From Frankia sp. AgB1.9 (lineage in GTDB: Bacteria > Actinomycetota > Actinomycetes > Frankiales > Frankiaceae), in NCBI RefSeq assembly GCF_016786355.1, contig NZ_JADWYX010000026.1, positions 6,749-70,748 on the forward strand: a DNA stretch of 64,000 bases, given 5' to 3'. Shown piece by piece: positions 101-17,020 of this stretch. Every line of letters starts with the position of its first letter. Positions within the stretch are counted from its first letter, which is position 1. The position numbers were made by a program, and so were the translations under genes. The notes below the pieces were generated by a model. The model was given only the letters and a program-made list of their open reading frames with translations, searched no databases and was not told where the DNA came from.

Positions 101-146
101 GCCTGCCGTCCATCCGACCGGCGGGTGACCCGAGCCATGCCCATTG

Positions 147-175
147 ATAGTTTCTACTATGTGGCGACTACCATA
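147..175 (+). promoter_or_regulatory. ATAG-N6-CTAT operator/promoter, copy 1
   Basis: Positions 147-160 read ATAGTTTCTACTAT, an inverted repeat (ATAG/CTAT around six bases). The right arm doubles as a -10-like TACTAT. The flank continues GTGGCGACTACCATAG, which is also conserved at copies 3 and 4 (about 3058 and 8698), and CTATG...CATAG forms a second inverted repeat. It lies about 100 bp upstream of the lipoprotein gene at 258. It fits a TetR-type operator over the promoter; the binding protein is unknown, and the TetR gene at 4766 is the nearest candidate. Confidence 0.6.
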
Positions 176-257
176 GAGCGAACGTTGATCTCGCCCTAGC
201 GGCCGCCAGTCGAGAAACCATCCGGCCTCCTTTGGTCGGCAAGAAGAGGAGACAGCT

Positions 258-1601
258 ATGCGGCGACCTCACCGGGTTGCTTTAGTTGTGACGGTGGCCT
301 GCGCCGTAGGCCTCGCCGGTTGCGGCGGCAGTAGTGGCGGCGGGAGCGCCGCCCCGGTCACGGTGGACCCGGCGCTGACCAAGCTGGGGCCGGATCACGG
401 CTGGAACCAGACCAACGTCACCGCCGACGCCGCCTCGCTCAAATGCAACACGGCCGCCTCGGACCCGAACCGCGGCATCACCGCGACCTCCATCAAGATC
501 GGCGGGCTGGTCTCTGTTACCAGCCCCGCCGGCGCCGCGATGGGTGACACGACGGCCGGCGCCGAGGCACGCTTCGGGCGCGCCAACGCGGACGGCGGCG
601 TGAACGGCCGCAAGATCGATCTTCTGGACGTGCGCGACGACGGCAGCGACCCAGCCCGCGACGCCGACCAGGCCAAGGCGATCGTCGAGAAGGACAAGCC
701 CTTCGCGTCGCTCGTGGCGACCACGGACGGGAACTACATCGACTCGTTCTGCTCGGGCGAGATGCCTTTCTTCGGCTGGGGCAACAACACCGGCTTCTGC
801 GGCAACGTGATCGGCTTCGGCATCACCGGCTGCCAGACGCCGGCGACCGGCAGCCCGCGCGCCGTCGACACCACCGGCGGCCTGCTGGTGGGCAAGTCCG
901 TCCCCGCCGGAGCCGCCAAGACCATCGCGCTCATCGGGCTCGACAACGACGCGGCCCGCCAGGGACTCGTCACCGTACGGCAGAGCTTCGACATCGCCGG
1001 GTTCAAGACGGTCTACAACAAGAGCCCGATCCCGGTCTCCGGCCTGACCGATCCGACCTCGATCGTCAGCGAGGTCATGACCGCCGACGCGGGCAAGCCG
1101 CCGGCCGTCGTCTTCTTCATCTCCCAGTTCAATGACGCCATCAAGCTCACCGGCGCGCTCAAGGCGGCCGGCTACAAGGGCACGATCGTCTCGCCGATCT
1201 ACGACCCGCGCGTCAGTGGCCTCAAGGAGTTCGACGACACCTACGCGCTGCTGCAGTGGCAGGGCGGCTTCAACACCGACATCCCCGCCGTCGCCCAGAT
1301 GGTCGCCGACTTCAAGAAGTACTCCCCCGACGCCGCGCTCAGCCTGACCGCGGTGGCCGGTTACTGGGCCGCCGACATGCTGGTCACCGGCCTGCAGAAG
1401 GCCGGGAAGGACCTCACGGTCGACTCCTTCCTGAAGACGCTCAACAACAACTACTCCAACTACGTCCCCGGAGCGCTGCCGGAGACCCGCTGGCCGGTCA
1501 ACCACGTCGCCCCCGCGCCGTGCGAGACGGTCGCGCACCTGACGAACGGCACGTGGTCCGCCGGCCCGCTGCAGTGCGGCGCCATCGCCCGGACCAACTG
1601 A
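258..1601 (+). CDS. ABC transporter Leu/branched-chain-type substrate-binding lipoprotein
   Basis: The 447-residue product has a basic N-terminus, a hydrophobic stretch and a lipobox LAGC with Cys22, so it should be a lipid-anchored extracellular protein. The rest matches the type-I periplasmic binding fold (Peripla_BP_6), with repeated INGRKI/VNGRKI-like and GITATSIKIGG segments. A GGAG-like ribosome site sits just upstream of the ATG. It is a close paralog of the protein at 14388-15746: both share the ALPxTRWPxNH segment near the C-terminus and paired cysteines. No permease or ATPase genes adjoin it. The neighbours are acyl-CoA catabolic genes, so the ligand is probably an organic acid or lipid degradation product rather than an amino acid; that is inference. 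Confidence 0.88.
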   Translation: MRRPHRVALVVTVACAVGLAGCGGSSGGGSAAPVTVDPALTKLGPDHGWNQTNVTADAASLKCNTAASDPNRGITATSIKIGGLVSVTSPAGAAMGDTTAGAEARFGRANADGGVNGRKIDLLDVRDDGSDPARDADQAKAIVEKDKPFASLVATTDGNYIDSFCSGEMPFFGWGNNTGFCGNVIGFGITGCQTPATGSPRAVDTTGGLLVGKSVPAGAAKTIALIGLDNDAARQGLVTVRQSFDIAGFKTVYNKSPIPVSGLTDPTSIVSEVMTADAGKPPAVVFFISQFNDAIKLTGALKAAGYKGTIVSPIYDPRVSGLKEFDDTYALLQWQGGFNTDIPAVAQMVADFKKYSPDAALSLTAVAGYWAADMLVTGLQKAGKDLTVDSFLKTLNNNYSNYVPGALPETRWPVNHVAPAPCETVAHLTNGTWSAGPLQCGAIARTN

Positions 1602-1683
1602 CCGGACGATCCTGGCCGGCCTGGCGACCAACCCCCGCCGGACCGGCCAGGCATCAGGCCGCCACAGCGGTCGCCCCCACCAC

Positions 1684-1697
1684 ATAGCAAGTGCTAC
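1684..1697 (+). promoter_or_regulatory. ATAG-N6-CTAC operator/promoter, copy 2
   Basis: ATAGCAAGTGCTAC differs from the best palindrome (copy 6, ATAGCAAGTACTAT) at two bases. It sits about 60 bp before the acyl-CoA dehydrogenase start at 1758, so that gene likely has its own regulated promoter rather than depending on read-through from the lipoprotein gene. Confidence 0.5.
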
Positions 1698-1757
1698 GTT
1701 CCGCACGCCCACGGATTCCGCGGGGTCTTCGGAACATCGCTAGCGAGGAGAGTCGAC

Positions 1758-2933
1758 GTGCGGCGAGAGCTCTTCGGGCCCGACCACGAGGCGCTGCGGG
1801 AGACCGCCAGGACGTTCGTCGAGCGCGAGGTCGTTCCCCACCAGGACACCTGGCTGGAGAAGGGCCTGGTGGACCGGTCGGCCTGGCTCGCGGCCGGCGC
1901 CCAGGGGCTCCTGGGTATCGCCGCGCCGGCCGAGTACGGCGGCGCCGGCGAGCACGACTACCGGTACCGGCTGGTGCTCGTCGAGGAGCTGGCCCGGGTG
2001 GGCGCGGCGTCCTTCAACGCCGGCACCTCCGCGCAGGACGACCTCGTCGTCCCCTACCTGCGGGACCTCGGCACCGCAGAGCAGCAGGCGGCCTGGCTGC
2101 CGCGGCTGTGCACCGGCGAGGCGATCGGCGCGCTGGCGATGACCGAGCCGGGCGCGGGCAGCGACCTGCAGGGCATCCGGACCAGCGCCGTTCGCGACGG
2201 CGAGGGCTGGCGGCTGTCGGGCAGCAAGACGTTCATCACCAACGGCATCCTGGCCGACGTCGTCATCGTCTTCGCCCGGACCGAACCCGAGGCCGGCTCG
2301 CGCGGGTACAGCCTGTTCCTGGTCGAGAGCGCGGCGGACGGCTTCCGGCGCGGCCGCAAGCTGGAGAAGCTCGGCCTGCGCGGCAACGACACCGCCGAGC
2401 TGTTCTTCGACGACATCGTGCTGCCCTCGACGGCCCTGCTCGGCACCGAGGGGCGCGGCCTGGCTCACCTGATGGAACGGCTGCCACTGGAGCGGCTGTC
2501 GATCGGGGCCACGTCCTACGCGTTCGCCCGCGCCGCCTACGACTGGACCGTCGAGTACTGCTTCGGGCGCCGCGCCTTCGGCCAGCCGATCGGCGACTTC
2601 CAGAACACCCGGTTCACCCTGGCCGAGATCGCCACCGAGCTGGATGTCGCGCAGGCCTACCACGACCGCGCCGTCCTGGCCCTGGGCGACGGCTCACTGA
2701 CGGCGGTCGACGCCGCCAAGGCCAAGTGGTGGCTGACCGACCTGCAGAACCGGGTCGTCGACCGGTGCGTGCAGCTGCACGGCGGCTACGGCTTCATGTG
2801 GGAGTACCCGATCACCCGCGCCTACGCCGACGCCCGGATCCAGCCGATCTTCGGCGGCACCAACGAGATCATGAAAGAGATCATCGGCCGCGACATCGCC
2901 CGAGGCGCCAATGCGGGCGGCGCGACGGCGTAG
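1758..2933 (+). CDS. Acyl-CoA dehydrogenase
   Basis: FAD-dependent alpha,beta-dehydrogenation of an acyl-CoA. The 391-residue length is normal for the family. Visible motifs are MTEPGAGSD (128-136, flavin/substrate contact), RRAFGQPIGDFQ (271-282) and the C-terminal QLHGGYGFMWEYP and IFGGTNEIM blocks. At the usual IYEGT catalytic position the residue is Gly366, as in isovaleryl/long-chain-type enzymes whose base lies on another helix. The GTG start follows GAGGAGAG. Codon use is normal for the window. The context (DUF35, Ltp2-like thiolase, crotonase) suggests side-chain or branched-acid beta-oxidation. The exact substrate cannot be read from sequence. Confidence 0.92.
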   Translation: MRRELFGPDHEALRETARTFVEREVVPHQDTWLEKGLVDRSAWLAAGAQGLLGIAAPAEYGGAGEHDYRYRLVLVEELARVGAASFNAGTSAQDDLVVPYLRDLGTAEQQAAWLPRLCTGEAIGALAMTEPGAGSDLQGIRTSAVRDGEGWRLSGSKTFITNGILADVVIVFARTEPEAGSRGYSLFLVESAADGFRRGRKLEKLGLRGNDTAELFFDDIVLPSTALLGTEGRGLAHLMERLPLERLSIGATSYAFARAAYDWTVEYCFGRRAFGQPIGDFQNTRFTLAEIATELDVAQAYHDRAVLALGDGSLTAVDAAKAKWWLTDLQNRVVDRCVQLHGGYGFMWEYPITRAYADARIQPIFGGTNEIMKEIIGRDIARGANAGGATA

Positions 2934-3043
2934 CACGACCGCCCGCACGGCCGGCCGCCGGAAGACCGCAGGTGGCCCTCCCGGCGGCCGGAGGCGGCCA
3001 GCCTCCGGCCGCCGGCTCCGTTTGCGGCGCGTCAGGTCCGCCG

Positions 3044-3073
3044 ATAGCATCTACTATGTGGCGGACACCATAA
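3044..3073 (+). promoter_or_regulatory. ATAG-N6-CTAT operator/promoter, copy 3
   Basis: ATAGCATCTACTAT at 3044-3057 is followed by GTGGCGGACACCATAA, the same extended flank as copy 1. The -10-like TACTAT (3052-3057) would start transcription near 3064, upstream of the DUF35 gene, making DUF35-thiolase (and perhaps the TetR gene) a regulated operon. Confidence 0.6.
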
Positions 3074-3090
3074 CCCCGGTCGACGCGACC

Positions 3091-3516
3091 GTGCACCCTG
3101 TGCCAGCGGTCACCGCGGACAACGAGTTCTTCTGGACGGCCGCCAGCGAGGGCCGGCTGGTAGCCCAGCGCTGCACGGGCTGCGGCCTGCTGCGCCACCC
3201 GCCGGCCGTCGCCTGCCCGGCCTGTCACTGCCTCGACCACGAGGTCGTGGAGCTCAGCGGGCGCGGCGAGGTGTACAGCTACGCGCTGCTGCATCATCCC
3301 CGCAGCCCGCGGTTCCAGTACCCGGTGGCGGCCGTGCTGGTCGATCTGGAGGAAGGCGTCCGGGTGGTCTCGAACCTCGTGGACGTCGACCCGGCCGCCG
3401 TCCGCGTCGGCCTTCCGGTCGAGGTCGCCTTCGAGCCGACGGACGACGACGACCTCGCGGTCCCGGTCTTCCGCCCCCGGGCCGGCGTGGCACCAACGAA
3501 GGGAGTCGCCCGATGA
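3091..3516 (+). CDS. DUF35 OB-fold / zinc-ribbon acyl-CoA-associated protein
   Basis: Small protein (141 residues from the GTG at 3091) with an N-terminal rubredoxin-like zinc ribbon: CTGCG then CPACH, four metal-binding cysteines, followed by an OB-fold domain (GEVYSYALLHHP, VAAVLVDLEEGVRVVSNL). Such DUF35 proteins (ChsH2 C-terminal-domain type) bind thiolase-fold partners and present the CoA ester. Its stop overlaps the start of the thiolase gene (ATGA at 3513), so the two are translationally coupled, as for known DUF35-Ltp2 pairs. The start is uncertain: GTG codons at 3058 and 3100 are also in frame. 3058 lies inside the putative operator and before the predicted transcript start, so I prefer 3091. 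Confidence 0.85.
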   Translation: MHPVPAVTADNEFFWTAASEGRLVAQRCTGCGLLRHPPAVACPACHCLDHEVVELSGRGEVYSYALLHHPRSPRFQYPVAAVLVDLEEGVRVVSNLVDVDPAAVRVGLPVEVAFEPTDDDDLAVPVFRPRAGVAPTKGVAR

Positions 3517-4682
3517 GCGGCGGCGGGTTGGGCGGACGGACCGCGATCGTCGGCATCGGGTCGACCGAGTTCTCGCAGGACGCCGGGCGCAGCGAGACAC
3601 GGCTCGCGACCGAGGCGATCCTCGCCGCGCTGGCCGACGCCGGGCTGTCGACCGATGACGTCGACGGCCTGGTCAGCTACACGATCGACCCGGTCGAGGA
3701 GACCGAGCTGGTTCGCGCGCTCGGGATCCCGGAGATCGGCTGGTCGAGCCGGGTCCCGTATGGCGGGGCCGGCTCGCAGGGCGTGCTCCTGCATGCCGCG
3801 GCCGCGGTCGCCTCCGGCGCCGCCGACGTCGTGGTCGCCTACCGGGCGGTGCGGGCCCGGTCGGGAGCACGGCGGTTCGGGGCGGCGAAGGCCGGCGGAG
3901 CGACGTCGTCGCACTCCGGCACGACCGCGGGACAGTGGTGCGCCCCCTTCGGCGTCCTCACCCCGGCGTCCTGGATGTCGCTGAACGCCACCCGCTACAT
4001 GCACGCCTTCGACGTCACCAACGAGGACTTCGGGCGGGCGGTGGTCGGCCTGCGGGCCTACGCGGCCACCAACCCGGCCGCGCGCTTCTTCGGCCGGCCG
4101 ATCACCCTGGACGACCACCAGGCGTCACGGTGGATCGCCGAGCCGGCGATCCGGCTGTTCGACTGCTGCCAGGAGACGGACGGCGCGATCGCCCTGGTCA
4201 TCACGTCGCGCGACCGCGCGCGGGACACCCCGGCCCCGGTGACCATCGCCGCGGCGGCCGGCGCGGCGCTCGCCGGCCAGGAGGTCGCCACCGACCACTA
4301 CTCCCCCGACCTGTCGGCGATGGCCGGATCGGCGGCGCTCGCCCGCCGGCTGTTCGACCGGACCGGCATCGACCGCTCCGACCTCGATCTCCTGATGATC
4401 TACGACGCGTTCACCCCGGTCCTGTTCATGCAGCTCGAAGGCCTCGGCTTCTGCGCGCCCGGCGAGGCGAAGGACCTCGTCGCCTCTGGCGTGTTCGCGC
4501 CCGGCGGGTCGCTGCCCCTGAACACCAACGGAGGCCTGATCGGCGAGGGCTACATCCACGGGCTCAACCTCGCCACCGAGGCGGTCCGCCAGCTGCGCGG
4601 CACGGCCGCCAACCAGCTCGACCGCGTCGAGCTCGCCCTCGTCAGCGCCAGCCGTACCGGCGTCGTGCTCGCCAGCGCGTGA
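3513..4682 (+). CDS. Thiolase-fold lipid-transfer protein (Ltp2/SCP-x-like), no nucleophilic Cys
   Basis: Thiolase superfamily, 389 residues. Where degradative thiolases carry the acylated Cys, this protein reads PYGGAGSQG (82-90), with no cysteine. The C-terminal NTNGGLIGEGYIHG motif and YDAFTPVLFMQLEGLGFC are typical of the Ltp2/SCP-x thiolase-like group, where partners with DUF35 proteins act as retro-aldolases that cleave a beta-hydroxyacyl-CoA side chain. Coupling to the DUF35 gene by a 4-bp overlap supports that role. By inference it releases a short acyl-CoA from a cyclic or branched backbone. It could instead be a non-catalytic scaffold. Confidence 0.87.
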   Translation: MSGGGLGGRTAIVGIGSTEFSQDAGRSETRLATEAILAALADAGLSTDDVDGLVSYTIDPVEETELVRALGIPEIGWSSRVPYGGAGSQGVLLHAAAAVASGAADVVVAYRAVRARSGARRFGAAKAGGATSSHSGTTAGQWCAPFGVLTPASWMSLNATRYMHAFDVTNEDFGRAVVGLRAYAATNPAARFFGRPITLDDHQASRWIAEPAIRLFDCCQETDGAIALVITSRDRARDTPAPVTIAAAAGAALAGQEVATDHYSPDLSAMAGSAALARRLFDRTGIDRSDLDLLMIYDAFTPVLFMQLEGLGFCAPGEAKDLVASGVFAPGGSLPLNTNGGLIGEGYIHGLNLATEAVRQLRGTAANQLDRVELALVSASRTGVVLASA

Positions 4683-4765
4683 CGAGTGACCCACCCTTCG
4701 CTCCGGCCAGGAACGTCCCAGCATGCGAGGATCTACTTGCAGAGGGAAAGTCCGGGAGGAGAACA

Positions 4766-5428
4766 GTGACGGAGACGGCCGAGAACGGGACGTCCTACGC
4801 TCCGCGTGACCGCTCACGGTCGCGTCGGCAGCCGAAGGACCAGGCCGGGCGGACCCAGATCGTCGACGCCGCCGTCGCCTGCATCCTCGAGCTCGGCTTC
4901 TACCGCGCGAGCAGCAACGAGATCGCCCGGCGCGCGCACCTGAGCTGGGGCGCGATCCAGTACCACTTCGGCACCCGCGAGGCCCTGATGCTCGCCGCGG
5001 TCGAGGAGATCAACCGCCGCTTCATCGCCTCGCTCGCGCAGTGTCACGTCGAGGGCGAGACGCTCACCGAGCGCGTCGAGTCCCTCTACGACCTGCTCGC
5101 CCAGCACTACGGCGCCTCGTCCTACCTGGCCAGCATGCAGATCATGCTGAACTTCCAGCACGACCCGAACACGTCGCCCGCTGCCAACGAGGCGCTCCAC
5201 GCGCAGCACCAGCGGGTCGGCGACGAGATCCGCCGCCTGCTCACCGAGACGTTCGGCCCGGACATCGACCACGCCCAGCGCACCGCGATGTTCCACGCGA
5301 TCCGCGGCTACGCCATCAGCACCCAGCTGCGCGACCTCGTCGCGGCCGACCTGGCCGGCCCGCTCCAGCCCGAAGCCCGCAAGTTCTTCCTCGCCGGGCT
5401 CGTCGCCGGCGCGGAACCGACCAGCTGA
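4766..5428 (+). CDS. TetR-family transcriptional regulator
   Basis: 220 residues with an N-terminal DNA-binding domain at about 29-75: GRTQIVDAAVACILELGF, then the helix-turn-helix ending WGAIQYHFGTREALM. The C-terminal ligand domain is divergent, as is usual. The GTG start at 4766 is chosen because GGGAGGA lies 5 bp upstream. The gene follows the thiolase gene by about 80 bp on the same strand and is the only regulator inside the block that carries the ATAG-N6-CTAT sites, so it is the best candidate for the factor binding them. Just before it, GATCTACTTGCAG resembles only the core of that motif. Confidence 0.9.
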   Translation: MTETAENGTSYAPRDRSRSRRQPKDQAGRTQIVDAAVACILELGFYRASSNEIARRAHLSWGAIQYHFGTREALMLAAVEEINRRFIASLAQCHVEGETLTERVESLYDLLAQHYGASSYLASMQIMLNFQHDPNTSPAANEALHAQHQRVGDEIRRLLTETFGPDIDHAQRTAMFHAIRGYAISTQLRDLVAADLAGPLQPEARKFFLAGLVAGAEPTS

Positions 5429-5494
5429 CCAGCTTCACGGGCGCCGTGGCGCTTTCGGCGCACGCTCCAGTGACGGGCAGCGAGTCCGCCGGCG

Positions 5495-5526
5495 GTTGTG
5501 CCATTTCCCCGACCCAATTGGCGATC
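5495..5526 (-). repeat. Half copy of GATCGCC-ended intergenic element
   Basis: Read on the minus strand from 5526 the sequence begins GATCGCCAATTGGGTCGGGG then AAAT, closely matching the left ends of the elements at 14138 and 14244. No matching right end is visible within 75 bp, so this is a decayed or truncated copy in the gap after the TetR gene. Confidence 0.5.
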
Positions 5527-5636
5527 ATCACGCCCTTGTCACAGGCCACAAGCGCGTCGACACGAACACGGCACCGCGATCGATCATCGCATCGACGCGG
5601 ACGTTCGCGCGCGGACCGGGAACAGGAGAAGCAGGC

Positions 5637-6539
5637 GTGACTTCCTTCGAGCAGATTCGCCTCGACAGCGCGGATGGCATCGCCACGATCACGCTGAACC
5701 GGCCGGAGGCGCTCAACGCGTTCACGGACACGATGGAGGCCGAGCTCGTCGCCGCCTACGACCTCGTGGACGCCGACGACGCCGTCCGGGCGGTCATCCT
5801 GACCGGCGCCGGGCGGGCGTTCTGCGCCGGCATGGACCTCAGCGACGGTGGGGCCGTCTTCGACGCCTGGACGTCGAGTGGCTCCCCGTCCGACGGTGCG
5901 CCGTCGCCTGCCCGGGAACTGCGCCGCGATGGCGGTGGCCGGGTGGCGCTGCGCATGTACGAGTCCCGAAAGCCGATCATCGCCGCGATCAACGGGCCCG
6001 CCGTCGGGGTGGGCATCACGATGACCCTGGCCGCCGACTTCCGCCTGGCGGTGCCGGCGGCGAAGATCGGTTTTGTCTTCTCGCGTCGCGGCCTCGTTCC
6101 CGAGTCCTGCTCCAGCTGGTTCCTGCCACGCCTGGTCGGGCTGCAGACGGCGCTCGACTGGATGTACAGCGGGAGGATCTTCACCTCCGAGGAGGCGCTC
6201 GACGCGGGGCTGCTGCGCGGTCTCCACGAGCGTGCCGACCTTCTCCCGGCCGCGCGTGCGCTGGCCGTCTCGCTCACGGCGGAGTCCGCGCCCGTGTCGG
6301 TGGCGCTGACCCGCCAGCTGCTGTGGCGGATGCTCGGCGAGAACCATCCGATGCGCGCGCACGAGGTCGAGACCCTCGGCATCAACGTTCGCGGGGTGAG
6401 CGAGGACGCGCGTGAGGGCATCAGCGCGTTCCTCGACAAGCGGGCGGCGGTTTTCCCGCAGGACGTGTCGACGCAGACGCCGGACCTGTTCGGTGACCTG
6501 CCCGCTCCGGCCTATCGGGAGCCGCGATCGCCACGGTGA
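5637..6539 (+). CDS. Enoyl-CoA hydratase/isomerase (crotonase family)
   Basis: 300-residue crotonase acting on 2-enoyl-CoA esters. The two oxyanion-hole segments are visible: AFCAGMDLSDGG (61-72) and INGPAVGVGITM (118-129). RRGLVPESCSSWFLPRLVG (150-168) supplies the usual helix and the candidate catalytic acid Glu156. The GTG start at 5637 follows AGGAGAAGCAGGC; an upstream in-frame start at 5496 would add 47 residues of atypical sequence. It carries a longer insert (73-105) than minimal crotonases. It is followed by a strong hairpin shared with the convergent operon. Confidence 0.92.
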   Translation: MTSFEQIRLDSADGIATITLNRPEALNAFTDTMEAELVAAYDLVDADDAVRAVILTGAGRAFCAGMDLSDGGAVFDAWTSSGSPSDGAPSPARELRRDGGGRVALRMYESRKPIIAAINGPAVGVGITMTLAADFRLAVPAAKIGFVFSRRGLVPESCSSWFLPRLVGLQTALDWMYSGRIFTSEEALDAGLLRGLHERADLLPAARALAVSLTAESAPVSVALTRQLLWRMLGENHPMRAHEVETLGINVRGVSEDAREGISAFLDKRAAVFPQDVSTQTPDLFGDLPAPAYREPRSPR

Positions 6540-6551
6540 CTGGCCCGCCTC

Positions 6552-6580
6552 GGCTGCCCGCCCCGCTCTGGCGGGCAGCC
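6552..6580. terminator. Bidirectional hairpin terminator between convergent genes
   Basis: Perfect 11-bp inverted repeat GGCTGCCCGCC (6552-6562) / GGCGGGCAGCC (6570-6580) with a 7-base loop, in the 52-bp gap between the stop at 6539 (+) and the stop at 6592 (-). There is no T run, as is common in GC-rich actinobacteria. Confidence 0.75.
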
Positions 6581-6591
6581 GGGCGCGGCGG

Positions 6592-7017
6592 TCAGGGGAA
6601 GCGGCGCATCAGGGTCACGTTGAACCCGAACCACTGTGCCGGGTCGAGGATGAGCTGGTGGACGGCCGCGGACTGCTCGTCGGCGTTGCCCTTGCGGCTG
6701 TCGTACTCGTAGACGATGTTGTAGTCGTGCTCCGCGAGCCAGGCGCGGGTCTCGTCGATGTCGGCGATCTGCCAGACCAGGGGGCCGATCTGGCCCGGCC
6801 CTCGTTCCAGCTTCGCGGCGAAGCTGCCCTTTCCGTCGACGGGAGCCACCAGCTCGATGAAGCCGTCGAAGGCGGTCGCCGACAGCACCGGCATGCCCTG
6901 AATCGGGTGCGGCTTCGGCAGGCCCAGCCCGAAGACCTCGTTGAACTGCTCGACGGCCTTCTCGATCTCGTCCTCGCGGACGACGAGCTCGACCCGATTG
7001 AATCCTAAGTGGTCCAC
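6592..7017 (-). CDS. VOC (glyoxalase/epimerase-like) superfamily protein
   Basis: 141-residue protein of the vicinal-oxygen-chelate fold, with an opening strand GFNRVELVVRED, a pairing helix EKAVEQFNEVFGL and a second module ending DPAQWFGFNVTLMRRF. VOC enzymes use a metal site for epimerisation, dioxygenation or lyase reactions. Resemblance to methylmalonyl-CoA epimerase is only at fold level. It is the last gene of the minus-strand unit running from 8559. Function is unknown beyond the superfamily. Confidence 0.75.
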   Translation of the reverse strand: MDHLGFNRVELVVREDEIEKAVEQFNEVFGLGLPKPHPIQGMPVLSATAFDGFIELVAPVDGKGSFAAKLERGPGQIGPLVWQIADIDETRAWLAEHDYNIVYEYDSRKGNADEQSAAVHQLILDPAQWFGFNVTLMRRFP

Positions 7018-7108
7018 TTTTCCTCCTGCATATAGGAAATGAATGCGGGCTGGGTGTGTCCGGTCGTGCTTTCAAAAGAAGACGGGCCGCGTCGCCAGGG
7101 GTGTCGGG

Positions 7109-7867
7109 TCACCACGACACGCCGCGCGCACCGCCGCCGTTGACGGTCAGGACCTGGCCGCTGACATACCCGGAGTCGTCCGAGGCGAGGAACGCGACCA
7201 CGTCGGCGACGTCCTCGGGCAGGCACACCCGGCCCGCGGCGGACGCGGCGCCGAACTTGTTGATCATCTCGTCGTCGAAGATCCCGCGGATGCCCTCGGT
7301 CAGGACGAAGCCGGGCGCCACCACGTTGCTGCGAATGCCGGCCTGGCCGAAGTTGGCTGCCGTGTACAGGGACAAGGTCTCCACCGCGGCCTTCGCCGTG
7401 CCATAGGCGACCCGGGTCGCTGTCGCGGCATGGGCCGCGCCCGAGCTGGTGGTGATGATCGAGCCGCCCCCGGTCTTCACCATCACGGGAATGGCATGGC
7501 GGCACCCGTAGACAGCCGCCATCACCACCACGTCGAAGGTCGACCGCCACAGCGAGTCGGGGGTGCGGACCGTGTCGGTGTCCTCGGCCGACGAGCTGAC
7601 GGCGTTGTTGTGCAGGACGTCGAGCCGGCCGAACCGCTCGACCGCCGTGTCGACTAGGGCCGCGACGGCGGCCTCGTCGGTGACGTCGGCCTGGCGCGCC
7701 ACGACCGCGTCGCCGAGCTGCTCGGCCACGGCTGCCACGGCGTCGGCGTCGATGTCCGAGGCGACCACCGACGCGCCGTCGGCGGCGAGGCGGCGCACGG
7801 TGGCGGCGCCGATGCCGCGACCAGCCCCGGTCACGATCGCGACCTTGCCCGCGAGCCTGGCGGTCAT
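7109..7867 (-). CDS. SDR-family NAD(P)-dependent oxidoreductase (3-oxoacyl/hydroxyacyl reductase type)
   Basis: 252-residue classical short-chain dehydrogenase: cofactor motif TGAGRGIG (13-20), DVTD near 61-64, HNNAV at 86-90, catalytic Ser about 141, Tyr155 and Lys159 (AYGTAKA), and a C-terminal QVLTVNGGGARG block. Its start overlaps the stop of the upstream hypothetical gene in ATGA, so the two are translationally coupled. A role in oxidising or reducing a hydroxyacyl intermediate of the neighbouring pathway is likely; cofactor preference cannot be fixed. Confidence 0.9.
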   Translation of the reverse strand: MTARLAGKVAIVTGAGRGIGAATVRRLAADGASVVASDIDADAVAAVAEQLGDAVVARQADVTDEAAVAALVDTAVERFGRLDVLHNNAVSSSAEDTDTVRTPDSLWRSTFDVVVMAAVYGCRHAIPVMVKTGGGSIITTSSGAAHAATATRVAYGTAKAAVETLSLYTAANFGQAGIRSNVVAPGFVLTEGIRGIFDDEMINKFGAASAAGRVCLPEDVADVVAFLASDDSGYVSGQVLTVNGGGARGVSW

Positions 7868-8559: not shown

Positions 8560-8683
8560 CTGGTTCCGCCCGTCCTGAATGGTGTTCGGGGTCGTCGGTA
8601 CGCCGGCCCACCGAGGTGACCGCGGATGCGGCCGGTCGGTGGGAAGCCTGGCGCGGACCCTTGCGGGATGAGGTTCCAGCACT

Positions 8684-8713
8684 GTAGTACTCGCTATGTG
8701 GCGCACGCCATGC
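8684..8713 (+). promoter_or_regulatory. ATAG-type operator/promoter, copy 4 (divergent region)
   Basis: GTAGTACTCGCTAT (8684-8697) followed by GTGGCGCACGCCATGCC. The downstream flank matches copies 1 and 3 base for base except in the variable positions. It lies between the minus-strand operon starting at 8559 and the acyl-CoA dehydrogenase starting at 8826, and could serve both. Confidence 0.55.
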
Positions 8714-8825
8714 CTTCGGCGTGTTGTCAGGACCAGGGCCCACCGGGAGCCAACCAGCGTCTCGGACCGCGCCACGCACTGAGCGTTGGGACACGCGGCC
8801 GTCGAGGAACCGAGGAGGAACGGGA

Positions 8826-10046
8826 GTGGACTTCGCGCCGAGCCCGAAGGCCGCCGAGTACATCGCACGGCTGACGGAGTTCATGGAGGAGCACGTCTAT
8901 CCGGCTGAGCCGAGCTACGAGGCGTACCGGCGGGAACGCGGGTGGGCCGACAACACCGTTCCGCCGGTGGTCGAGGAGCTCAAGGCCGAGGCTCGCCGGC
9001 GCGGGCTGTGGAACCTTTTCCTGCCTGACGCGGATGACCCCGCCCACGGCCTGTCGGTCACCGACTACGCGCAGCTCGCGGAGATCACCGGCCGCAGTCT
9101 CGACCTCGCGCCGGAGGCGTTGAACTGCTCCGCGCCGGACACCGGCAACATGGAGGTCCTGCACCTGTTCGGCACCGCCGAACAGAAGGAGACGTGGCTG
9201 CGCCCGCTGCTCGACGGGCGCATTCGCTCCGCCTTCGCCATGACCGAGCCCGACGTCGCCTCCTCCGACGCGACCAACATCCAGACGTCGATCCGCCGCG
9301 ACGGTGACGAGTACGTCATCAACGGCCGGAAATGGTGGATCAGCGGTGTCGCCGATCCCCGCTGCGAAGTCATGATCGTGATGGGCCGCACCGACCCCGA
9401 AGCTCCGACGCATCGGCAGCAGTCGCAGGTCCTGGTGCCGCTCGACACGCCAGGCGTGGAGATCGTCCGGCCGCTGCCGGTGTTCGGGTACTGGGACCAG
9501 CACGGGCACTGCGAGATCACGTTCACCGACGTCCGGGTACCGGTCCGCAACCTGATCGCGGGCGAGGGCGACGGCTTCGTCATCGCGCAGGCTCGGCTCG
9601 GCCCCGGCCGGATCCACCACTGCATGCGCTGCATCGGGGTCGCCGAGCGGGCGCTGGAGCTGGCGTGCCGGCGGGCCAGCACACGGGTGGCGTTCGGGAT
9701 GACGCTGGCCGAGCAGGGGGTCGTGCAGCAGCAGATCGCTGAGTCGCGGATGGAGATCGAACAGGCCAGGCTGCTGACCCTGAAAGCGGCCTGGCTGATC
9801 GACAACGGCGGCGTGAAGGGCGCCAGGACCGAGATCGCGGCCATCAAGGTGATCGCCCCGCGGATCGCGCTCGCCGTGCTCGACCGCGCGATCCAGATCC
9901 ACGGTGGTGGCGGCGTCTCCGACGACTTCCCGCTCGCCTCGCTGTACGCCCACACCCGGACGCTGCGCCTCGCCGACGGGCCCGACGAGGTGCACGTCCG
10001 CACCGTCGCGCGCCAGGAACTGCGTCCCTACCTCAGCCGCGTCTGA
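8826..10046 (+). CDS. Acyl-CoA dehydrogenase, ACAD10/11-like group
   Basis: 406-residue flavoprotein with [15 protein letters not shown] (flavin/substrate motif), [40 protein letters not shown], and the C-terminal [19 protein letters not shown] that marks the ACAD10/11-like group. The GTG start follows GAGGAGG 8 bp upstream. It probably oxidises a different acyl-CoA from the enzyme at 1758, as the two are not close paralogs. An operator of the shared family lies in its upstream region. Confidence 0.92.
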
Positions 10047-10127
10047 CCCCCGCACCAGCCGGCTCCTGCCTGCCGGCCACCAGACCGTGACTACTTCAGC
10101 TTCACCTTCACCTGAGGACGGAACTTC

Positions 10128-11381
10128 ATGGCATTTGGACTGGGGAGGAAGGCCAGCGTCGTCGGTCGCGTCGGCGCGGCCACGTTGTTATGCCTGGTCG
10201 CGGGTTGTGCCGGGACGAGCGCCGACGCAGGACAAGCGGGCTCATGTGACTCGCCCGGCGTCAGTGCCGACGCCATAAAGGTCGGGTTGGTCTACCCGGA
10301 CACGGGGGCCCTGGCGGCAGCGTTCGCGACGGCCCGCGGCGGTTTCGAGGCACGCATCGACCTGGCGAACGAGCAGGGTGGTGTCCACGGGCGTCGGGTC
10401 GAGGTCGTCTGGGGCGACGACGCGGGCGCCCTCAGCGGCAACCTCGCCGTCGCCCAGGACCTCGTGCAGAAGTCCGGGGTCTTCGCCCTGGCGGAGCTCA
10501 CCACGGTCGCGTCGGGCTCCGCTCCCTACCTCGCGAACGCCGGTGTCCCGGTGGTCGGACTGGCGACCGAGCCGTCCTGGAGCCAGTACGACAACATGTT
10601 CTCGACGTCGTACGACGTCTCGGACCAGAAATCCATCTCCACCTACGGCGATTTCATCGCGGCGCGTGGTGGCAAGAAGGTGGCCATCGTCGAGGACCAG
10701 GGCTCGCCCGCGACCCGTGCCGCCACCAACACCCTGATAACCAGCCTGACCGCGGCGGGCATACAGGTAGTAGCTCGTATCCCTTACACGGCGGGTGTCA
10801 CCTCCGCCGTACAGACTGCTTCGAAGATCGGGGCTAGCCGGGCGGACGTGCTGATCGGCGAGCTCGGTGCCGACAGCATCAGCGAGATCGTGGCCGCGAC
10901 CCACCAGGCCGGTCTCCGCCTCAAGGTCGTGCTTTCGGGCTCGGTGTACGACAAGACGCTGCTCGCGCGCTACGGAGCCGACCTCGCGGGCATGACGGCC
11001 TACATCACCCACCTGCCGTTCGAGTCGAACGCACCGGCCGTGACCACGTTCCGCTCGGCGGTGCGGCGCTTCTCCCCGGAGATCGACGACCCGGACCAGA
11101 GCGTGGTGCTCGGTTCCTACGGGCAGGCGGACCTGCTGCTGCGCGGGCTGGAGGTCGCCGGCGCGTGCCCGACCCGCCAGGCGTTCATCACCAACCTGCG
11201 GTCCGTACACGACTTCAACGCCGCGGGATTCCTCCCGGGCGGTGTTGACCTGAGCACCAACCGGGGCTCCCCGACGGTGTGCCTGGCCTTCCTCACGGTC
11301 AACGCGCAGGGGACGGCGTTCGAGATAGACCGGGCCCCGGACGGCAAGGAACAGTGGTGCGGCACCCGGATCGGCACCTGA
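10128..11381 (+). CDS. ABC transporter Leu-type substrate-binding lipoprotein (third in block)
   Basis: 417 residues. Lipoprotein signal with lipobox LVAGC, Cys27. Type-I binding-protein fold: AIKVGLVYPDTGALAAAF, NEQGGVHGRRVEVVWGDD, and a ligand-domain hinge around FFSxSYDVSDQKS-like sequence. It is more distant from the two paralogous lipoproteins at 258 and 14388 than they are from each other. No transporter membrane components adjoin. The ATG start lies 81 bp after the dehydrogenase stop, so it may be in the same transcript. Confidence 0.86.
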   Translation: MAFGLGRKASVVGRVGAATLLCLVAGCAGTSADAGQAGSCDSPGVSADAIKVGLVYPDTGALAAAFATARGGFEARIDLANEQGGVHGRRVEVVWGDDAGALSGNLAVAQDLVQKSGVFALAELTTVASGSAPYLANAGVPVVGLATEPSWSQYDNMFSTSYDVSDQKSISTYGDFIAARGGKKVAIVEDQGSPATRAATNTLITSLTAAGIQVVARIPYTAGVTSAVQTASKIGASRADVLIGELGADSISEIVAATHQAGLRLKVVLSGSVYDKTLLARYGADLAGMTAYITHLPFESNAPAVTTFRSAVRRFSPEIDDPDQSVVLGSYGQADLLLRGLEVAGACPTRQAFITNLRSVHDFNAAGFLPGGVDLSTNRGSPTVCLAFLTVNAQGTAFEIDRAPDGKEQWCGTRIGT

Positions 11382-11479
11382 CCGACCGCGGCCCGCGCGC
11401 CCCGGGCGGCGGCGGGTACGCCGGAATCTGCGCGGCCACCCTGCCCGAGATCGGCTACTCGGCCATGGGGGTTTTGCCG

Positions 11480-12037
11480 TCAATCCGTGACGTCAGGGCC
11501 TGGGTGCCGGTTGGGTAGCGTCGGCGGGGGCGAGAGATTGGGCAGCGAGGGCGGACGGTCGGGCGCCTCATCCGTGTTGTGCCCGCCGTAGTAGTACCTC
11601 ACGGGACCGTCGCTGGCTATCAGCGGAGTCTCGCCGGCCGGAGTAGCGGCCTGTAGGACACGCCCGCGTCGCCCGACTCGGCCTGAATCGATGGCGAAGC
11701 TGCCGATGATGGTCACGCCGTCCTGCTCATAGACCGGGATCAGGTTTGGTTGTCCGGCCGCTTCCCGTTCGGCGAGGTTCATGTTCCATGCAGACAGCTC
11801 GGACGGGGGTAGATGGGCGCCGGTCGCGGCGTCGACTTCGGTCCGCCTGATGTAGCCGCTCTTCCAGTCCGTGGTCCACGCGGAGATCAGGTCTGGCCGG
11901 TTGCCCGGGAACAGGGCGGCCAGATCCGAGCCGTAGGTCTCTCCGGCCGCGTTGGACGGCCAGAGCGTCACGTGGCCGGGACGAGCCTGTTCGGACGGAC
12001 GAGGGGGCACGGGCGGACCTGACTCGTTGTCGGGCAT
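11480..12037 (-). CDS. Hypothetical protein
   Basis: Unrecognised 185-residue protein, starting MPDNESG at 12037. It is Pro-rich at both ends (PPVPPRPSEQ; a tail rich in PPSLPNLSPPP), with a central folded part containing AWTTDWKSGYIRRTEVDAATG and RYYYGGHNTDE. No signal peptide or membrane span. Composition and codon third positions look coding. It is convergent with the lipoprotein gene at 11381, and the next gene upstream is another small hypothetical on the same strand. Confidence 0.55.
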   Translation of the reverse strand: MPDNESGPPVPPRPSEQARPGHVTLWPSNAAGETYGSDLAALFPGNRPDLISAWTTDWKSGYIRRTEVDAATGAHLPPSELSAWNMNLAEREAAGQPNLIPVYEQDGVTIIGSFAIDSGRVGRRGRVLQAATPAGETPLIASDGPVRYYYGGHNTDEAPDRPPSLPNLSPPPTLPNRHPGPDVTD

Positions 12038-12106
12038 GCAACCTCTACCAGCATCCGAAAAGATCACCAGATTGCCCGCCGTCCTTCACCGCGCGACTGT
12101 CACTCG

Positions 12107-12370
12107 TCAGCACTCGCCAAATTTCACCTCATACGAAGGCCCAAGTTCGTCCGCGACGCGGACGGCCAGCGCGCGACCTCGGGTGTTCAGATCGATCCGG
12201 GCCTGTTCGTCGGGCCAGGCACAGCCGTTGGCGAGAAGCGTCTGGGTGTAGTCGTCCGACCAGCGGGCGAGATCCTCGCGCAACGGCGCTCTGAGCGGCA
12301 GCGCGTCAGGCGAGAGCATTCCGCCTCGCTCGCCTCCGGACCACAACGGAAACGCGTAGTAGTCGGCCAT
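12107..12370 (-). CDS. Small hypothetical protein
   Basis: 87 residues beginning MADYYAFPLWSGG; an in-frame ATG at 12394 would add eight residues. It has a mix of acidic and aromatic residues (LREDLARWSDDYTQTLL, RVADELGPSYEVKFGEC). No known domain is recognised. It lies 69 bp upstream of the hypothetical at 11480-12037 on the same strand and is probably cotranscribed. Confidence 0.5.
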   Translation of the reverse strand: MADYYAFPLWSGGERGGMLSPDALPLRAPLREDLARWSDDYTQTLLANGCAWPDEQARIDLNTRGRALAVRVADELGPSYEVKFGEC

Positions 12371-12599
12371 CACGGCCACCCGCGACACAGGCACGCTGTC
12401 AGGATAAGGCGGTTCGCGGGACGGCGCGGACCATCAGTGAAGGCGCTGAGCCGGAGCGACGCGGCATGTCGTTCCCGGCATCAGGTCCACGACGAATACC
12501 AGGAGCACCGGAAGGCCGCCTGACCACCTCGAATAGCGACACGGGTAACGTGACCGGAGGCACCTGCGGCCGGTTTGCTTTTCTGGCACCCTTGGGCCC

Positions 12600-12992
12600 G
12601 TGAGCGCCTCCGACTTGGAGCAAGGCACCGAAGCTGAGCTGCTTCGCGAGTGGACCTTGTATCGCCAGGAGATCGATCCCGCCGCCCGAGAGTTACTCGC
12701 GGCGAGCGACTCGTGGGACGCACACGACGCTGCCCTCCTCCTCTGTGGCGTGCTCGTCGAGCACCTCACGTGGCTGCCACATGGCGGTCGGGTCTACGCC
12801 GCCTGGGCCGAACTCACTGACCTCTACGAAGTCGGCGACACCCCGAAGGACATTGCTCACCGCGTCTTGCGTAACGCGGCGACACGGTGGGTCGAGACGC
12901 CTACGACACCTAGTCCTAGGTACATCACAGACTGGCTCATCGCGACGCACGCGGACATCCGGGAGACCTTGGCAAGTCAAGCCGGTCAGTGA
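12600..12992 (+). CDS. Hypothetical protein, acidic helical
   Basis: 130 residues from GTG at 12600. Predicted mostly alpha-helical and acidic (LEQGTEAELLREWTLYRQEIDPAARELL, AWAELTDLYEVGDTPKDIAHRVL). No recognised domain. Divergent from the small hypothetical at 12370. GC3 is somewhat lower than in the catabolic genes, which fits a recently arrived or weakly expressed locus, but the signal is slight. Confidence 0.55.
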   Translation: MSASDLEQGTEAELLREWTLYRQEIDPAARELLAASDSWDAHDAALLLCGVLVEHLTWLPHGGRVYAAWAELTDLYEVGDTPKDIAHRVLRNAATRWVETPTTPSPRYITDWLIATHADIRETLASQAGQ

Positions 12993-13048
12993 CGGAATCC
13001 GCGCGGCGGCCCCTTCTCGCGCGGCCGACGCATCCGACACACGCGGGA

Positions 13049-13131
13049 GGGGTGGCATCCCGACACGTCCGGGGTGCCGAGCGAAGCGAGGCGGGGCCCG
13101 GGTCGTGGCGGGCTGCCACCCCTTCGGCAGC
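13049..13131 (+). other. Structured intergenic segment upstream of purN-like gene
   Basis: GGGGTGGCA (13049-13057) pairs perfectly with TGCCACCCC (13114-13122) across a GC-rich 56-base interior. The right arm is also part of a competing local hairpin, GCTGCC (13112-13117) / GGCAGC (13126-13131). Two mutually exclusive folds in a 326-bp gap without a gene suggest a structured RNA or attenuator; this is inference from base pairing only. Confidence 0.4.
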
Positions 13132-13318
13132 GTCGCCCCGTCGCTACAGGACGGCGGCTGAAAGCCGGTGCCACACTGTCGTCGCCAGTCCGACCGACAC
13201 GGGTTGGCGCAGAGTAACAGTTGAGACCGCGCATAAACTCTGCGCGTGGTCGCTCTTTCGTTCCAGCCCGAACTTTCCCCGGTCTCGACGACAGGTACGG
13301 ACTGCGAGGTGCCAGGTT

Positions 13319-13987
13319 GTGGCTGACTTTCGCGTTGCCGTGTTCGCGTCACACGAGGGGACCAACCTGCGGGCGTTGCACCGAGCCTCCCTCGAACCGG
13401 GGACCGCGTACAGCCTGACTCTGGTCCTGAGCAACAACAGAGACTCCGCCGCGCTCGGTTACGCCCGGACCCATGCCATACCGGCCGCGCACCTGTCAGG
13501 GATGACCCATCCCGACCCCGTCAAGCTGGATGCAGCCATCTGCGCGCTCTTGCGCGAGCACCAGGTCGACCTGATCGTGACGGCTGGCTACATGAAGAAA
13601 ATCGGTCCGCTCACGCTGGCGTCCTACGCCGGCCAGATCATTAACGTTCACCCGTCCCTGCTGCCGCGACACGGCGGTCAAGGCATGTATGGCCGCGCTG
13701 TGCATGAAGCCGTCCTCGCTTCCCTCGATCCCGTGACCGGCCCCTCGGTCCATCTCGTCACGGCCGAATACGACACAGGGCCCGTCATCGCCCGCCACGA
13801 ACTCCCGGTACGCCCAGATGACACCGTCGAAAGCCTCGCCAGCCGAGTCCTCGCGGCCGAGCACGACCTACTGCCCGCCGTGGTCCAGAATCTCGCCGCA
13901 CGCGCGACCAGCCCGCCGACGCCCGCGGACTCCCTCAGAGCACCCTCTGCGACCAGACCCAACGGCCATCCGCGCACGACGCCCTGA
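13319..13987 (+). CDS. purN: Phosphoribosylglycinamide formyltransferase-like (GART/formyl_transf_N family)
   Basis: 222-residue formyltransferase fold using 10-formyltetrahydrofolate. Phosphate-loop-like SHEGTNLRAL (11-20), hydrophobic core VDLIVTAGYMKKIG, catalytic signature NVHPSLLPRHGG with Asn109 and His111, then GQGMYGRAVHEAV and the acidic residue Asp152 in AEYDTGP. These match PurN residues N106/H108/D144. The GTG at 13319 is chosen; upstream frame sequence to 12989 looks non-coding. It is not beside purH or other purine genes, so it could be a second PurN or a formyltransferase for another amine. The C-terminal 25 residues are a disordered Pro/Ser tail. Confidence 0.78.
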   Translation: MADFRVAVFASHEGTNLRALHRASLEPGTAYSLTLVLSNNRDSAALGYARTHAIPAAHLSGMTHPDPVKLDAAICALLREHQVDLIVTAGYMKKIGPLTLASYAGQIINVHPSLLPRHGGQGMYGRAVHEAVLASLDPVTGPSVHLVTAEYDTGPVIARHELPVRPDDTVESLASRVLAAEHDLLPAVVQNLAARATSPPTPADSLRAPSATRPNGHPRTTP

Positions 13988-14032
13988 GGTGGCACCCCAG
14001 GCGTCGCCCGACGGGGCGCCGAGGTTCTTCAT

Positions 14033-14106
14033 GATCGCGAGTTGGCAGGGGAAATCGTCGTTCACTGCCCTGGCTTGTCGCACTTATTCATGCGCAACTG
14101 GCGATC
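14033..14106. repeat. GATC-ended near-palindromic element, subfamily 2, copy 1
   Basis: 74 bp starting GATCGCGAGTTGGCAGGG and ending GCGCAACTGGCGATC, so the ends are imperfect inverted repeats (GATCGCCAGTTGCGCA on the opposite strand). It is the first unit of an array with about 106-bp spacing between convergent genes (purN-like + and lipoprotein -). Confidence 0.6.
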
Positions 14107-14137
14107 ACTGCCGCCACTCACCACCGGACCGCACGAA

Positions 14138-14212
14138 GATCGCCAGATGGGTAGGCGAAATCGTCGTTCTGTATCCTGATTTGCGCTTTTTATCCCTGCG
14201 CAACTAGTGATC
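14138..14212. repeat. GATC-ended near-palindromic element, subfamily 2, copy 2
   Basis: 75 bp starting GATCGCCAGATGGGTAGG and ending GCGCAACTAGTGATC. It shares GAAATCGTCGTTC internally with copy 1 at the same offset. The second unit of the array. Confidence 0.6.
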
Positions 14213-14243
14213 ATGGCCGGTCAGGCATCCGGAATCGACCGAA

Positions 14244-14272
14244 GATCGCCAGTTGGGCAGGCAATCCGGCGT
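14244..14272 (+). repeat. Half copy of subfamily 2 element
   Basis: GATCGCCAGTTGGGCAGGC repeats the left end of the previous unit at a spacing of 106 bp. The right half is missing, as sequence diverges toward the lipoprotein stop at 14388. Confidence 0.5.
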
Positions 14273-14387
14273 CTGCGCGCGGAATGAGGAGCCGCCTCGG
14301 GTGGCCCGGCGAACGTCGTCGCCGGACGTCGCCGCGCGCCGAACGGGCCCGAGCGCCAGCGGCGTCCGGGCCCGTCCGGGTCGGTGG

Positions 14388-15746: not shown

Positions 15747-16079
15747 AACGGGAGCCTCCCGTTCGCGTGCTGCGCGAGCGGGTGAACCGACCCCGCGGGC
15801 CCGGCCGGCGGCCGTGCCTTATCAGGCCACGAGCCGCGTGGCAGATCGAGCATGATCACTCCTGTGTCGTGGCGGACCGAACGTCCGGCGGCGGGTCGGC
15901 GACGCGAGCGGCAGCCTCGACGGCTGCCGCCAGCCCCGCGGGTCCACACCTGTGACCGGCCGCCCAGGCAAGCATGTGAGCTAGGGCACATTAGCATTTA
16001 CTATGTGCCCACTGCTACTCACGTGTTTCGCTAGCCCGGAGAGGCGGCCGTCCTGGCCAGCGCCACAGGAGTGATCGCG
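15747..16079. other. Divergent regulatory region
   Basis: 333-bp gap between the lipoprotein gene (-) and the crotonase (+). Apart from operator copy 5 near 15991 and the two ribosome-binding sites, I see only GC-rich sequence with no coding frame. Confidence 0.5.
15991..16004 (+). promoter_or_regulatory. ATAG-type operator/promoter, copy 5
   Basis: TTAGCATTTACTAT, with the -10-like TACTAT at its right arm and the flank GTGCCCACTGCTACT, a weaker version of the GTGGCG-N4-CCAT flank at copies 1, 3 and 4. It lies 75 bp upstream of the crotonase start at 16080 and in the divergent region of the lipoprotein gene. Confidence 0.55.
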
Positions 16080-16853
16080 ATGGAAGCTGGACCACCTCGC
16101 CCCGAGGTCAGGATCGACCGAGACGGCCCCCTGGCCGTCGTGACCGTCGATCGCCCGGGTACGCGCAACGCGTTCGGGCCCGACACGCTGCATCACGTCG
16201 CGAGCGTGATCCGACACGCGACGGACGACGGCATCCGCGCGCTCGTCCTCACCGGCGCCGGCGAGGTGAGCTTCTCGTCAGGAATGGATCTCAAGGCACT
16301 CGCCAGCGCGCCTCGCGAGCAGCTGTCTGCCGCCGTGGAGGCCTTCGACGCGGCGATGGACGCGGCCGAGCGGCCGCCGCTCATCGCCGCCGTCAACGGT
16401 GCCGCGACCGGCGGCGGTTTCGAGATCGCGTTGCGTTGCGACCTTGTCGTGGCGGCGGACCACGCGACCTTCGGGCTGCCGGAGGTCCGGCGCGGGATCG
16501 TGCCGGGCGGCCGCGGCACGCTGCTGCCGAGCCGCATCCCGATCGCCGTCGCGCTCGAGATCGGGATCGTCGGCGAGCCGATCAGCGCGGCGCGGGCCTA
16601 CGAGCTCGGCCTGGTGAACCGGGTCGTCTCCGCCCCCGAGCTGCTGGACGTCGCTCGGGACCTCGGGCGCCGGATCGCCGCGAACGGCCCTCTGGCCGTC
16701 GCGCGCACCCGCGCGCTGATGTGGACGGCCGCGACCGAGTCGGCCGCGCTCGCCTGGGAGGAGACGCGGCGAGTACGAGACGACCCCGGCCTGGCCCGGG
16801 AGATGCGGGAAGGCGTCACCGCCTTCCTGGAGAAGCGTTCCCCTCGCTGGTGA
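16080..16853 (+). CDS. Enoyl-CoA hydratase/isomerase (crotonase family)
   Basis: 257 residues. Oxyanion-hole segments SFSSGMDLKALA and NGAATGGGFEIALRCDL are clear, followed by FGLPEVRRGIVPGGRGTLLPSRIP, which lacks the Glu normally found in hydratases at the GTIPGAGGTQ-like helix, so isomerase or another crotonase chemistry is possible. The ATG at 16080 has AGGAG at 16067-16071; a GTG at 16071 would overlap that ribosome site. Expression is probably driven by operator copy 5. Confidence 0.9.
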   Translation: MEAGPPRPEVRIDRDGPLAVVTVDRPGTRNAFGPDTLHHVASVIRHATDDGIRALVLTGAGEVSFSSGMDLKALASAPREQLSAAVEAFDAAMDAAERPPLIAAVNGAATGGGFEIALRCDLVVAADHATFGLPEVRRGIVPGGRGTLLPSRIPIAVALEIGIVGEPISAARAYELGLVNRVVSAPELLDVARDLGRRIAANGPLAVARTRALMWTAATESAALAWEETRRVRDDPGLAREMREGVTAFLEKRSPRW

Positions 16854-16984
16854 CCGCCCGGCGAACGTCCGCCTGAGGCCCGTCCCGCGCAGCGGCTCTC
16901 CACACCGAGCGTGCGGTCCTGTGACGGTCCACTCACGCCTCAGCCGGGTCGGTGACAGACCTTCCGACGCGGAATCATGTCAAC

Positions 16985-16998
16985 ATAGCAAGTACTAT
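16985..16998 (+). promoter_or_regulatory. ATAG-N6-CTAT operator/promoter, copy 6
   Basis: ATAGCAAGTACTAT, the most symmetrical site. TACTAT at 16993-16998 as -10 would start the transcript near 17005, leaving a leader of about 16 bases that just holds GAGGGG before the ATG at 17021. This spacing is the best evidence that the right arm is a true -10 element and that a bound repressor would block the polymerase. Confidence 0.65.
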
Positions 16999-17020
16999 AT
17001 TCATCGACCGAGGGGCGTAC

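Follow-up and report, generated by a model that had tools for sequence, protein, structure and literature searches.

A 64-kb stretch of the Frankia sp. AgB1.9 genome (contig NZ_JADWYX010000026.1, positions 6,749 to 70,748; hereafter the window, numbered from its first base) carries a block of genes for coenzyme A (CoA)-dependent degradation, a gene for a TetR-family regulator at 4766-5428, and six copies of a short palindromic sequence. A first-pass annotation had read these copies, ATAGCA-N2-TACTAT, as the sites of one regulon over a lipid-catabolic block, perhaps controlled by the TetR. Judged from sequence, the best explanation is that the six sites are very probably operators of one TetR-type repressor, the 4766-5428 protein. 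Gene starts were set with an ad hoc caller based on GC3, and Pfam searches confirmed the genes that follow the copies: a Peripla_BP_6 protein, two acyl-CoA dehydrogenases, a DUF35 and thiolase-like pair, a crotonase, and a thiolase. Coordinates are collected in Table 1.

Table 1. Operators and genes of the block (window coordinates; PWM, score against the position weight matrix)
Feature	Position	Strand	Evidence or remark
Operator 1 (22 bp)	143..164	.	PWM 25.0; centre ~104 bp upstream of Peripla_BP_6 gene start
Overlapping second operator-like stretch	157..178	.	14-bp offset from operator 1; PWM 8.9
Peripla_BP_6 binding-protein gene (target)	258..1601	+	PF13458 1.9e-44
Operator 2	1680..1701	.	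PWM 26.3
Acyl-CoA dehydrogenase gene (target)	1758..2933	+	PF00441 2.8e-41
Operator 3	3040..3061	.	PWM 26.2; heads the run of DUF35, thiolase-like, and TetR genes
ChsH2-type zinc ribbon/OB (DUF35) protein gene	3058..3516, start possibly 3091	+	PF01796 6.5e-19, PF12172 1.6e-10
Thiolase-like (lipid-transfer type) protein gene	3513..4682	+	PF22691 2e-31
TetR-family regulator, proposed binder	4766..5428	+	PF00440 6e-10; operator co-occurrence
Operator 4	8680..8701	.	PWM 21.9; between minus-strand gene and second acyl-CoA dehydrogenase
Second acyl-CoA dehydrogenase gene (target)	8826..10046	+	PF00441 1.3e-39
Operator 5	15987..16008	.	PWM 24.8
Crotonase (enoyl-CoA hydratase) gene (target)	16080..16853	+	PF00378 4.4e-49
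Operator 6	16981..17002	.	PWM 32.0; centre ~29 bp upstream of thiolase gene ATG
Thiolase gene (target)	17021..18166	+	PF00108 2.1e-68

A pattern scan of the window located all six copies where the annotation had placed them (147, 1684, 3044, 8684, 15991, and 16985). Those at 3044 and 16985 match ATAGHANNTACTAT exactly, those at 147 and 15991 carry one mismatch, and those at 1684 and 8684 carry two, the last on the minus strand only. Together they yield 11 strand matches, compared with a mean of 0.21 and a maximum of 2 in dinucleotide shuffles, and no seventh place was found within the 64 kb at up to two mismatches, as the annotation had also claimed. Operator centres lie ~29-135 bp upstream of start codons, with operator 3 at 7 or 40 bp. 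Three of the sites (3044, 8684, and 16985) fall within the longest possible open reading frame (ORF); the first two precede the median start of homology, and that at 16985 precedes an ATG equipped with a Shine-Dalgarno-like GAGGGG. The 22-bp site at 3044 overlaps the start codon if GTG 3058 is used, the alternative start being 3091.

When aligned, the sites are conserved across ~22 bp as the palindrome CMACATAGYANNTRCTATGTKG, with ATAG-N6-CTAT inside. The weight matrix was symmetrised; single sites nonetheless show both arms. Across the window and 21 fetched regions (~385 kb), 57 sites reached 16 bits, compared with none on reversed sequence, a count that is not independent because most of the regions were picked for their matches and also served to train the matrix. 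A non-redundant set of 59 sites was drawn from relatives and the window; L094 (G005:C59), whose site of 28.9 bits sits in AT-rich sequence, contributed to the matrix and to the 57 and was left out of the 59. In this set, 41 sites lie outside gene calls. The other 18 fall within a longest ORF; 13 of them precede the median homology start, three have no homologues but are followed by a start codon with a Shine-Dalgarno-like sequence, and two are of undecided placement (L079 9686 and L086 1814).

The protein encoded at 4766 carries its TetR_N helix-turn-helix at residues 32-78 of 220, and its gene starts 83 bp behind the thiolase-like gene, in the run headed by operator 3. It did not reach the cut-offs of the NCBIfam equivalogs BetI (48 versus 201.3 bits) or ScbR (44.9 versus 150 bits). 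An orthologue of at least 57% identity is present in eight of 58 genomes. The 18-bp pattern ATAGYANNTRCTATGTGG, allowing one mismatch, was found in seven of these eight and in none of the 50 genomes without the orthologue; if genomes were independent, the probability of this distribution would be 8/C(58,7), ~3e-8, a figure that serves as a guide only, as they are not. Three members of the same genus (G002, G004, and G006) have neither the orthologue nor a match at this stringency, and at two mismatches nine of the 50 TetR-less genomes also show ATAGYANNTRCTATGTGG, each at one or two places. No relative of the TetR was detected on plasmids at E 1e-15. Members of the TetR clade show little or no variation in the recognition-helix region (WGxIQ, FGxRE). 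The earlier suggestion of one regulon, putatively bound by the 4766 protein, is well supported by co-occurrence.

When each species was represented by a single genome, scanning yielded 25 TetR loci, including those of Frankia nepalensis CN7, Frankia sp. AgB32, AgKG'84/4, and EI5c, Pseudofrankia sp. BMG5.36, Trujillonella endophytica, three Blastococcus, Gordonia amarae, and metagenome-assembled genomes (MAGs) labelled as Acidimicrobiaceae and Streptosporangiales. A site of at least 16 bits is present in 19 of the 25, nine of which repeat training contigs. Among the 16 loci outside matrix training, 10 have such a site (L104, L105, L107, L109, L112-L116, and L118), two of them marginally (L116, 16.7 bits; L118, 16.3 bits), versus none of 16 in the reversed control. 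Around TetRs of 28-38% identity, 18 loci contained no site of 16 bits, the best scoring 13.4. As these control loci span 2.7-3.5 kb, shorter than most positive loci, the comparison was made within 1.5 kb of the TetR, where 10 of the 25 named loci (4 untrained) and none of the 18 controls have a site. The layout of the window recurs in an Acidimicrobiaceae MAG (L105), where a site is followed by DUF35, thiolase-like, CoA-transferase, and TetR genes, and Amidohydro_2, double CoA-transferase, and thiolase-like families stand beside the TetR. In Trujillonella (L112), an Amidohydro_2 and a thiolase-like gene adjoin the TetR, with an 820-aa gene between them that was left out of the scan.

The annotation placed the regulon across the block; its six sites stand, and the regulon also reaches beyond them. 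The own genome (G000; 9,788,632 bases in 278 contigs) was scanned in full. The scan that the annotation had proposed, with the short motif at two mismatches, returned background, as the 14-bp ATAGYANNTRCTAT occurs at 40 places versus 100 in the reversed control; allowing one mismatch, it occurs at 8 places, 5 of them within the block. The 16-bp core CATAGYNNNNRCTATG at one mismatch was rejected as a test, with matches in 33 of 35 genomes and a reversed control at least as high in 30 of the 35; only G000, G001, G003, G005, and G007 exceed it. Of the 34 own-genome places outside the window, 32 were scored (C88:6 and C253:9894 were left out), and seven reach 16 bits. The strongest, on C99 (29.2 bits), has a CoA-transferase III gene on one side and an alpha/beta-hydrolase gene on the other. 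Three more, C231:20530 (25.1 bits), C231:8650 (20.0 bits), and C183:85439 (18.6 bits), lie within the 5' end of a longest ORF, ahead of a Peripla_BP_6 domain. Four of the five off-block sites above 18.5 bits hence precede CoA-transferase III or Peripla_BP_6 genes. The genome holds 106 Peripla_BP_6 matches (105 above cut-off), a large set of binding proteins of the branched-chain-amino-acid type, and with so many, three such targets by chance are possible, though unlikely. A further place, C1:26919, between Amidohydro_2 and Peripla_BP_6 genes, scored only 9.7 bits and was not counted.

The near relative G001 carries the same off-block locus (L095) with an identical operator, an Amidohydro_2 gene, a double CoA-transferase, and a thiolase-like gene. 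Matches to the off-block CoA-transferase at E 1e-150 or better occur in five of 35 family genomes (G000, G001, G003, G005, and G007, the last with a 47% identical relative only), and all five carry the TetR and sites. These are also the five genomes in which the 16-bp core CATAGYNNNNRCTATG exceeds its reversed control. Orthologues of the DUF35-partner thiolase at 72% identity or more are found in the same five; matches of 48-52% occur in three TetR-less genomes too. Among neighbours of the 59 sites, the most frequent labels are Amidohydro_2 (12), Peripla_BP_6 (8), and CoA-transferase III (6), with 19 of the 59 unlabelled, in a tally that is descriptive, being based on BLAST against Pfam-labelled proteins, many of them picked for adjoining sites. 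The term "lipid-catabolic" is too narrow for these top neighbours.

From these computed features, namely the sites with their length, symmetry, and upstream placement, their co-occurrence with the TetR clade, and the further genomic sites, we infer binding, repression, a releasing ligand, and a second dimer. Specifically, a TetR dimer would bind the 22-bp palindrome near promoters and start codons and, once bound, would block transcription of the CoA-dependent degradation pathway. Its own gene run would be autoregulated through operator 3, and the repressor would be released by an intermediate of the pathway, an acyl-CoA thioester being the likeliest candidate.

The second dimer is suggested by the sequence beside the palindrome. 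The annotation had noted a flank, GTGGCG-N4-CCAT, shared by three copies, and this is present exactly at 147, 3044, and 8684. It consists of the palindrome end (GTGG) and part of a third half-site (CCAT) offset by 14 bp. With scoring restricted to the 14 bases beyond the palindrome and a threshold of -1 set after the scores were seen, a third half-site accompanies 16 of the 59 sites (118 flanks), about a quarter of operators, versus a mean of 0.79 (standard deviation 0.85, maximum 3) at other offsets from 24 to 150; at a threshold of 0, the numbers are 12 versus 0.63. In the window, third half-sites stand beside operators 1 (TACCAT, 169-174, within 157..178; partial score 6.8), 3 (CACCAT, 3066-3071; -0.3), 4 (CGCCAT, 8706-8711; -0.8), and 5 (TGCTAC, 16013-16018; 2.0) and are absent from 2 and 6. 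Such a half-site could make room for a second dimer next to the first. A weaker excess of half-sites occurs at offset 23 in the 59-site set (6 hits, two of them from one full-site pair in L092).

Several observations weigh against repression of all these genes by the 4766 protein. With the short and the loose pattern, counts in the own genome stay at or close to those of the reversed control, and its block is ~93-97% identical to that of G001, so conservation between the two adds little. G026, whose orthologue is 57% identical, has no ATAGYANNTRCTATGTGG match at one mismatch and only a 26.0-bit matrix site near its TetR. Six of the 16 untrained loci (L106, L108, L110, L117, L119, and L120) lack a site of 16 bits; when palindromes were sought near the TetRs of the first three, two had none and L110 had one weak, unrelated palindrome. 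Outside the block, the C68 site (18.9 bits) precedes a proline dehydrogenase, and no related target was recognised at C88 (17.5 bits) or C235 (17.4 bits). In TetR-bearing G003, the 400 bp upstream of a thiolase 93% identical to that of the window contain no site; targets are therefore gained and lost. Finally, the TetR and the pathway genes are co-inherited, so co-occurrence alone cannot separate candidate binders. As a side observation, the G003 thiolase locus (L143, G003:C31) adjoins another TetR, of 30% identity.

Co-inheritance is the basis of the rival that survives best, in which a different regulator, merely inherited along with the TetR and the pathway genes, binds the sites. Distance is in its favour, as sites lie kilobases from the TetR in L105 and L112-L115 and the window has none within 1.5 kb of its own. 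We nevertheless consider it improbable: among the 20 proteins scanned between 258 and 22109 (the small ORFs at 12110 and 12600 stand outside this set), no transcription factor other than the TetR was recognised, the sites are retained in other genera whose TetR relatives are 40-56% identical, they lie a few hundred bases from the TetR in L107, L109, and L116, and G019, G028, and G026 keep the TetR and a site while having no CoA-transferase match at E 1e-150. Slightly less probable again is that the TetR activates its targets. Some operators could lie upstream of promoters, given centres ~29-135 bp before start codons; operators 3 and 6, however, are so near the start codon that bound protein should block polymerase, and repression is the usual mode of the TetR family. 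The reading least likely to hold takes the TACTAT arms as -10 boxes, as the annotation did, and the shared sequence as a promoter element instead of an operator. TACTAT fits TANNNT, the actinobacterial -10, and at 16985 lies near a start codon, yet both arms of the palindrome recur, and same-genus TetR-less genomes have no 18-bp match even at two mismatches. At the 18 sites where a single gene clearly follows, TANNNT occupies the gene-facing arm in 5 and the other arm in 3. With no gene-facing bias, TACTAT belongs to the palindrome as one of its arms and is no fixed -10 box.

Comparison with the G001 block also revealed rearrangements. Window positions 5598-11389, including an intact operator 4, are inverted relative to the 93-96% identical block of G001. 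Positions 11400-14340 have a lower G+C content (66.5%), have no match in the G001 block regions compared, and look like an insertion; a formyltransferase gene (PF00551, 12989-13984) lies inside. G001 carries, at L091 6838-8085, a P450 gene with a separate operator (20.9 bits); the window lacks this gene at ~24135. Window positions 1-60 are low-complexity, nearly pure G/C sequence.

The thiolase-like protein narrowly exceeds the NF005892 cut-off (472.6 versus 469 bits), and its pairing with the DUF35 protein suggests, by family assignment, a retro-aldolase, an activity described for steroid side chains. Because of this pair, the pathway probably shortens the side chain of a CoA thioester. More broadly, a TetR clade from several actinobacterial lineages and Acidimicrobiaceae, sharing one common 22-bp operator, may control, as one dispersed regulon, a so far uncharacterised pathway of CoA-dependent degradation (Amidohydro_2, double CoA-transferase III, DUF35-thiolase retro-aldolase, acyl-CoA dehydrogenase, and dedicated binding proteins), with graded operators of two or three half-sites taking one or two dimers; for this wider proposal, we consider the evidence evenly balanced. 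The operator acts as a tag joining scattered genes, namely the acyl-CoA enzymes of the block, the CoA-transferase locus on another contig, and at least 4 of the 106 Peripla_BP_6 matches. With the regulator, operator, and gene list in hand, the substrate can be searched for, and knowledge of the ligand could allow the TetR to be used as a biosensor.

QacR is a TetR-family case in which two dimers occupy one operator region, an arrangement that the third half-site here would allow. QacR is described as a tetramer on a 28-bp palindrome (PMC4482099); here, by contrast, the extra half-site accompanies 16 of 59 sites, and two-dimer binding is a prediction. KstR and KstR2 are likewise TetR-family regulators, with palindromic operators that recur upstream of degradation genes and of the regulator's own gene (PMC1995591, PMC3068626), and the ChsH2-type DUF35 protein and lipid-transfer-type thiolase of the window belong to families known from steroid side-chain removal. 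The operators differ: by inspection, neither the KstR consensus TnnAACnnGTTnnA (PMC1995591) nor that of KstR2, AnCAAGnnCTTGnT (PMC3068626), is seen here, where ATAG and CTAT arms form ATAG-N6-CTAT in ~22 bp, which agrees with the annotation's view that the operator is unlike that of KstR. KstR matched the TetR profile at positions 24-120 only (E 4.9e-8), and the target families differ, being Amidohydro_2, CoA-transferase III, and Peripla_BP_6 here. AmtR of Corynebacterium glutamicum, also of the TetR family, shares CTAT/ATAG half-sites with a 6-bp spacer; its half-sites, however, stand in the opposite order, CTAT-N6-AtAG, not seen here, and control a nitrogen regulon (PMC2723105). BkaR of mycobacteria is a TetR repressor of a CoA-dependent degradation cluster with its motif twice in its own promoter region, but that motif, bound by a dimer, is GTTA(N)T(N4)A(N)TAAC (PMC3920632). 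No description of an operator of the CMACATAGYANNTRCTATGTKG type was found in the open-licence part of the literature searched.

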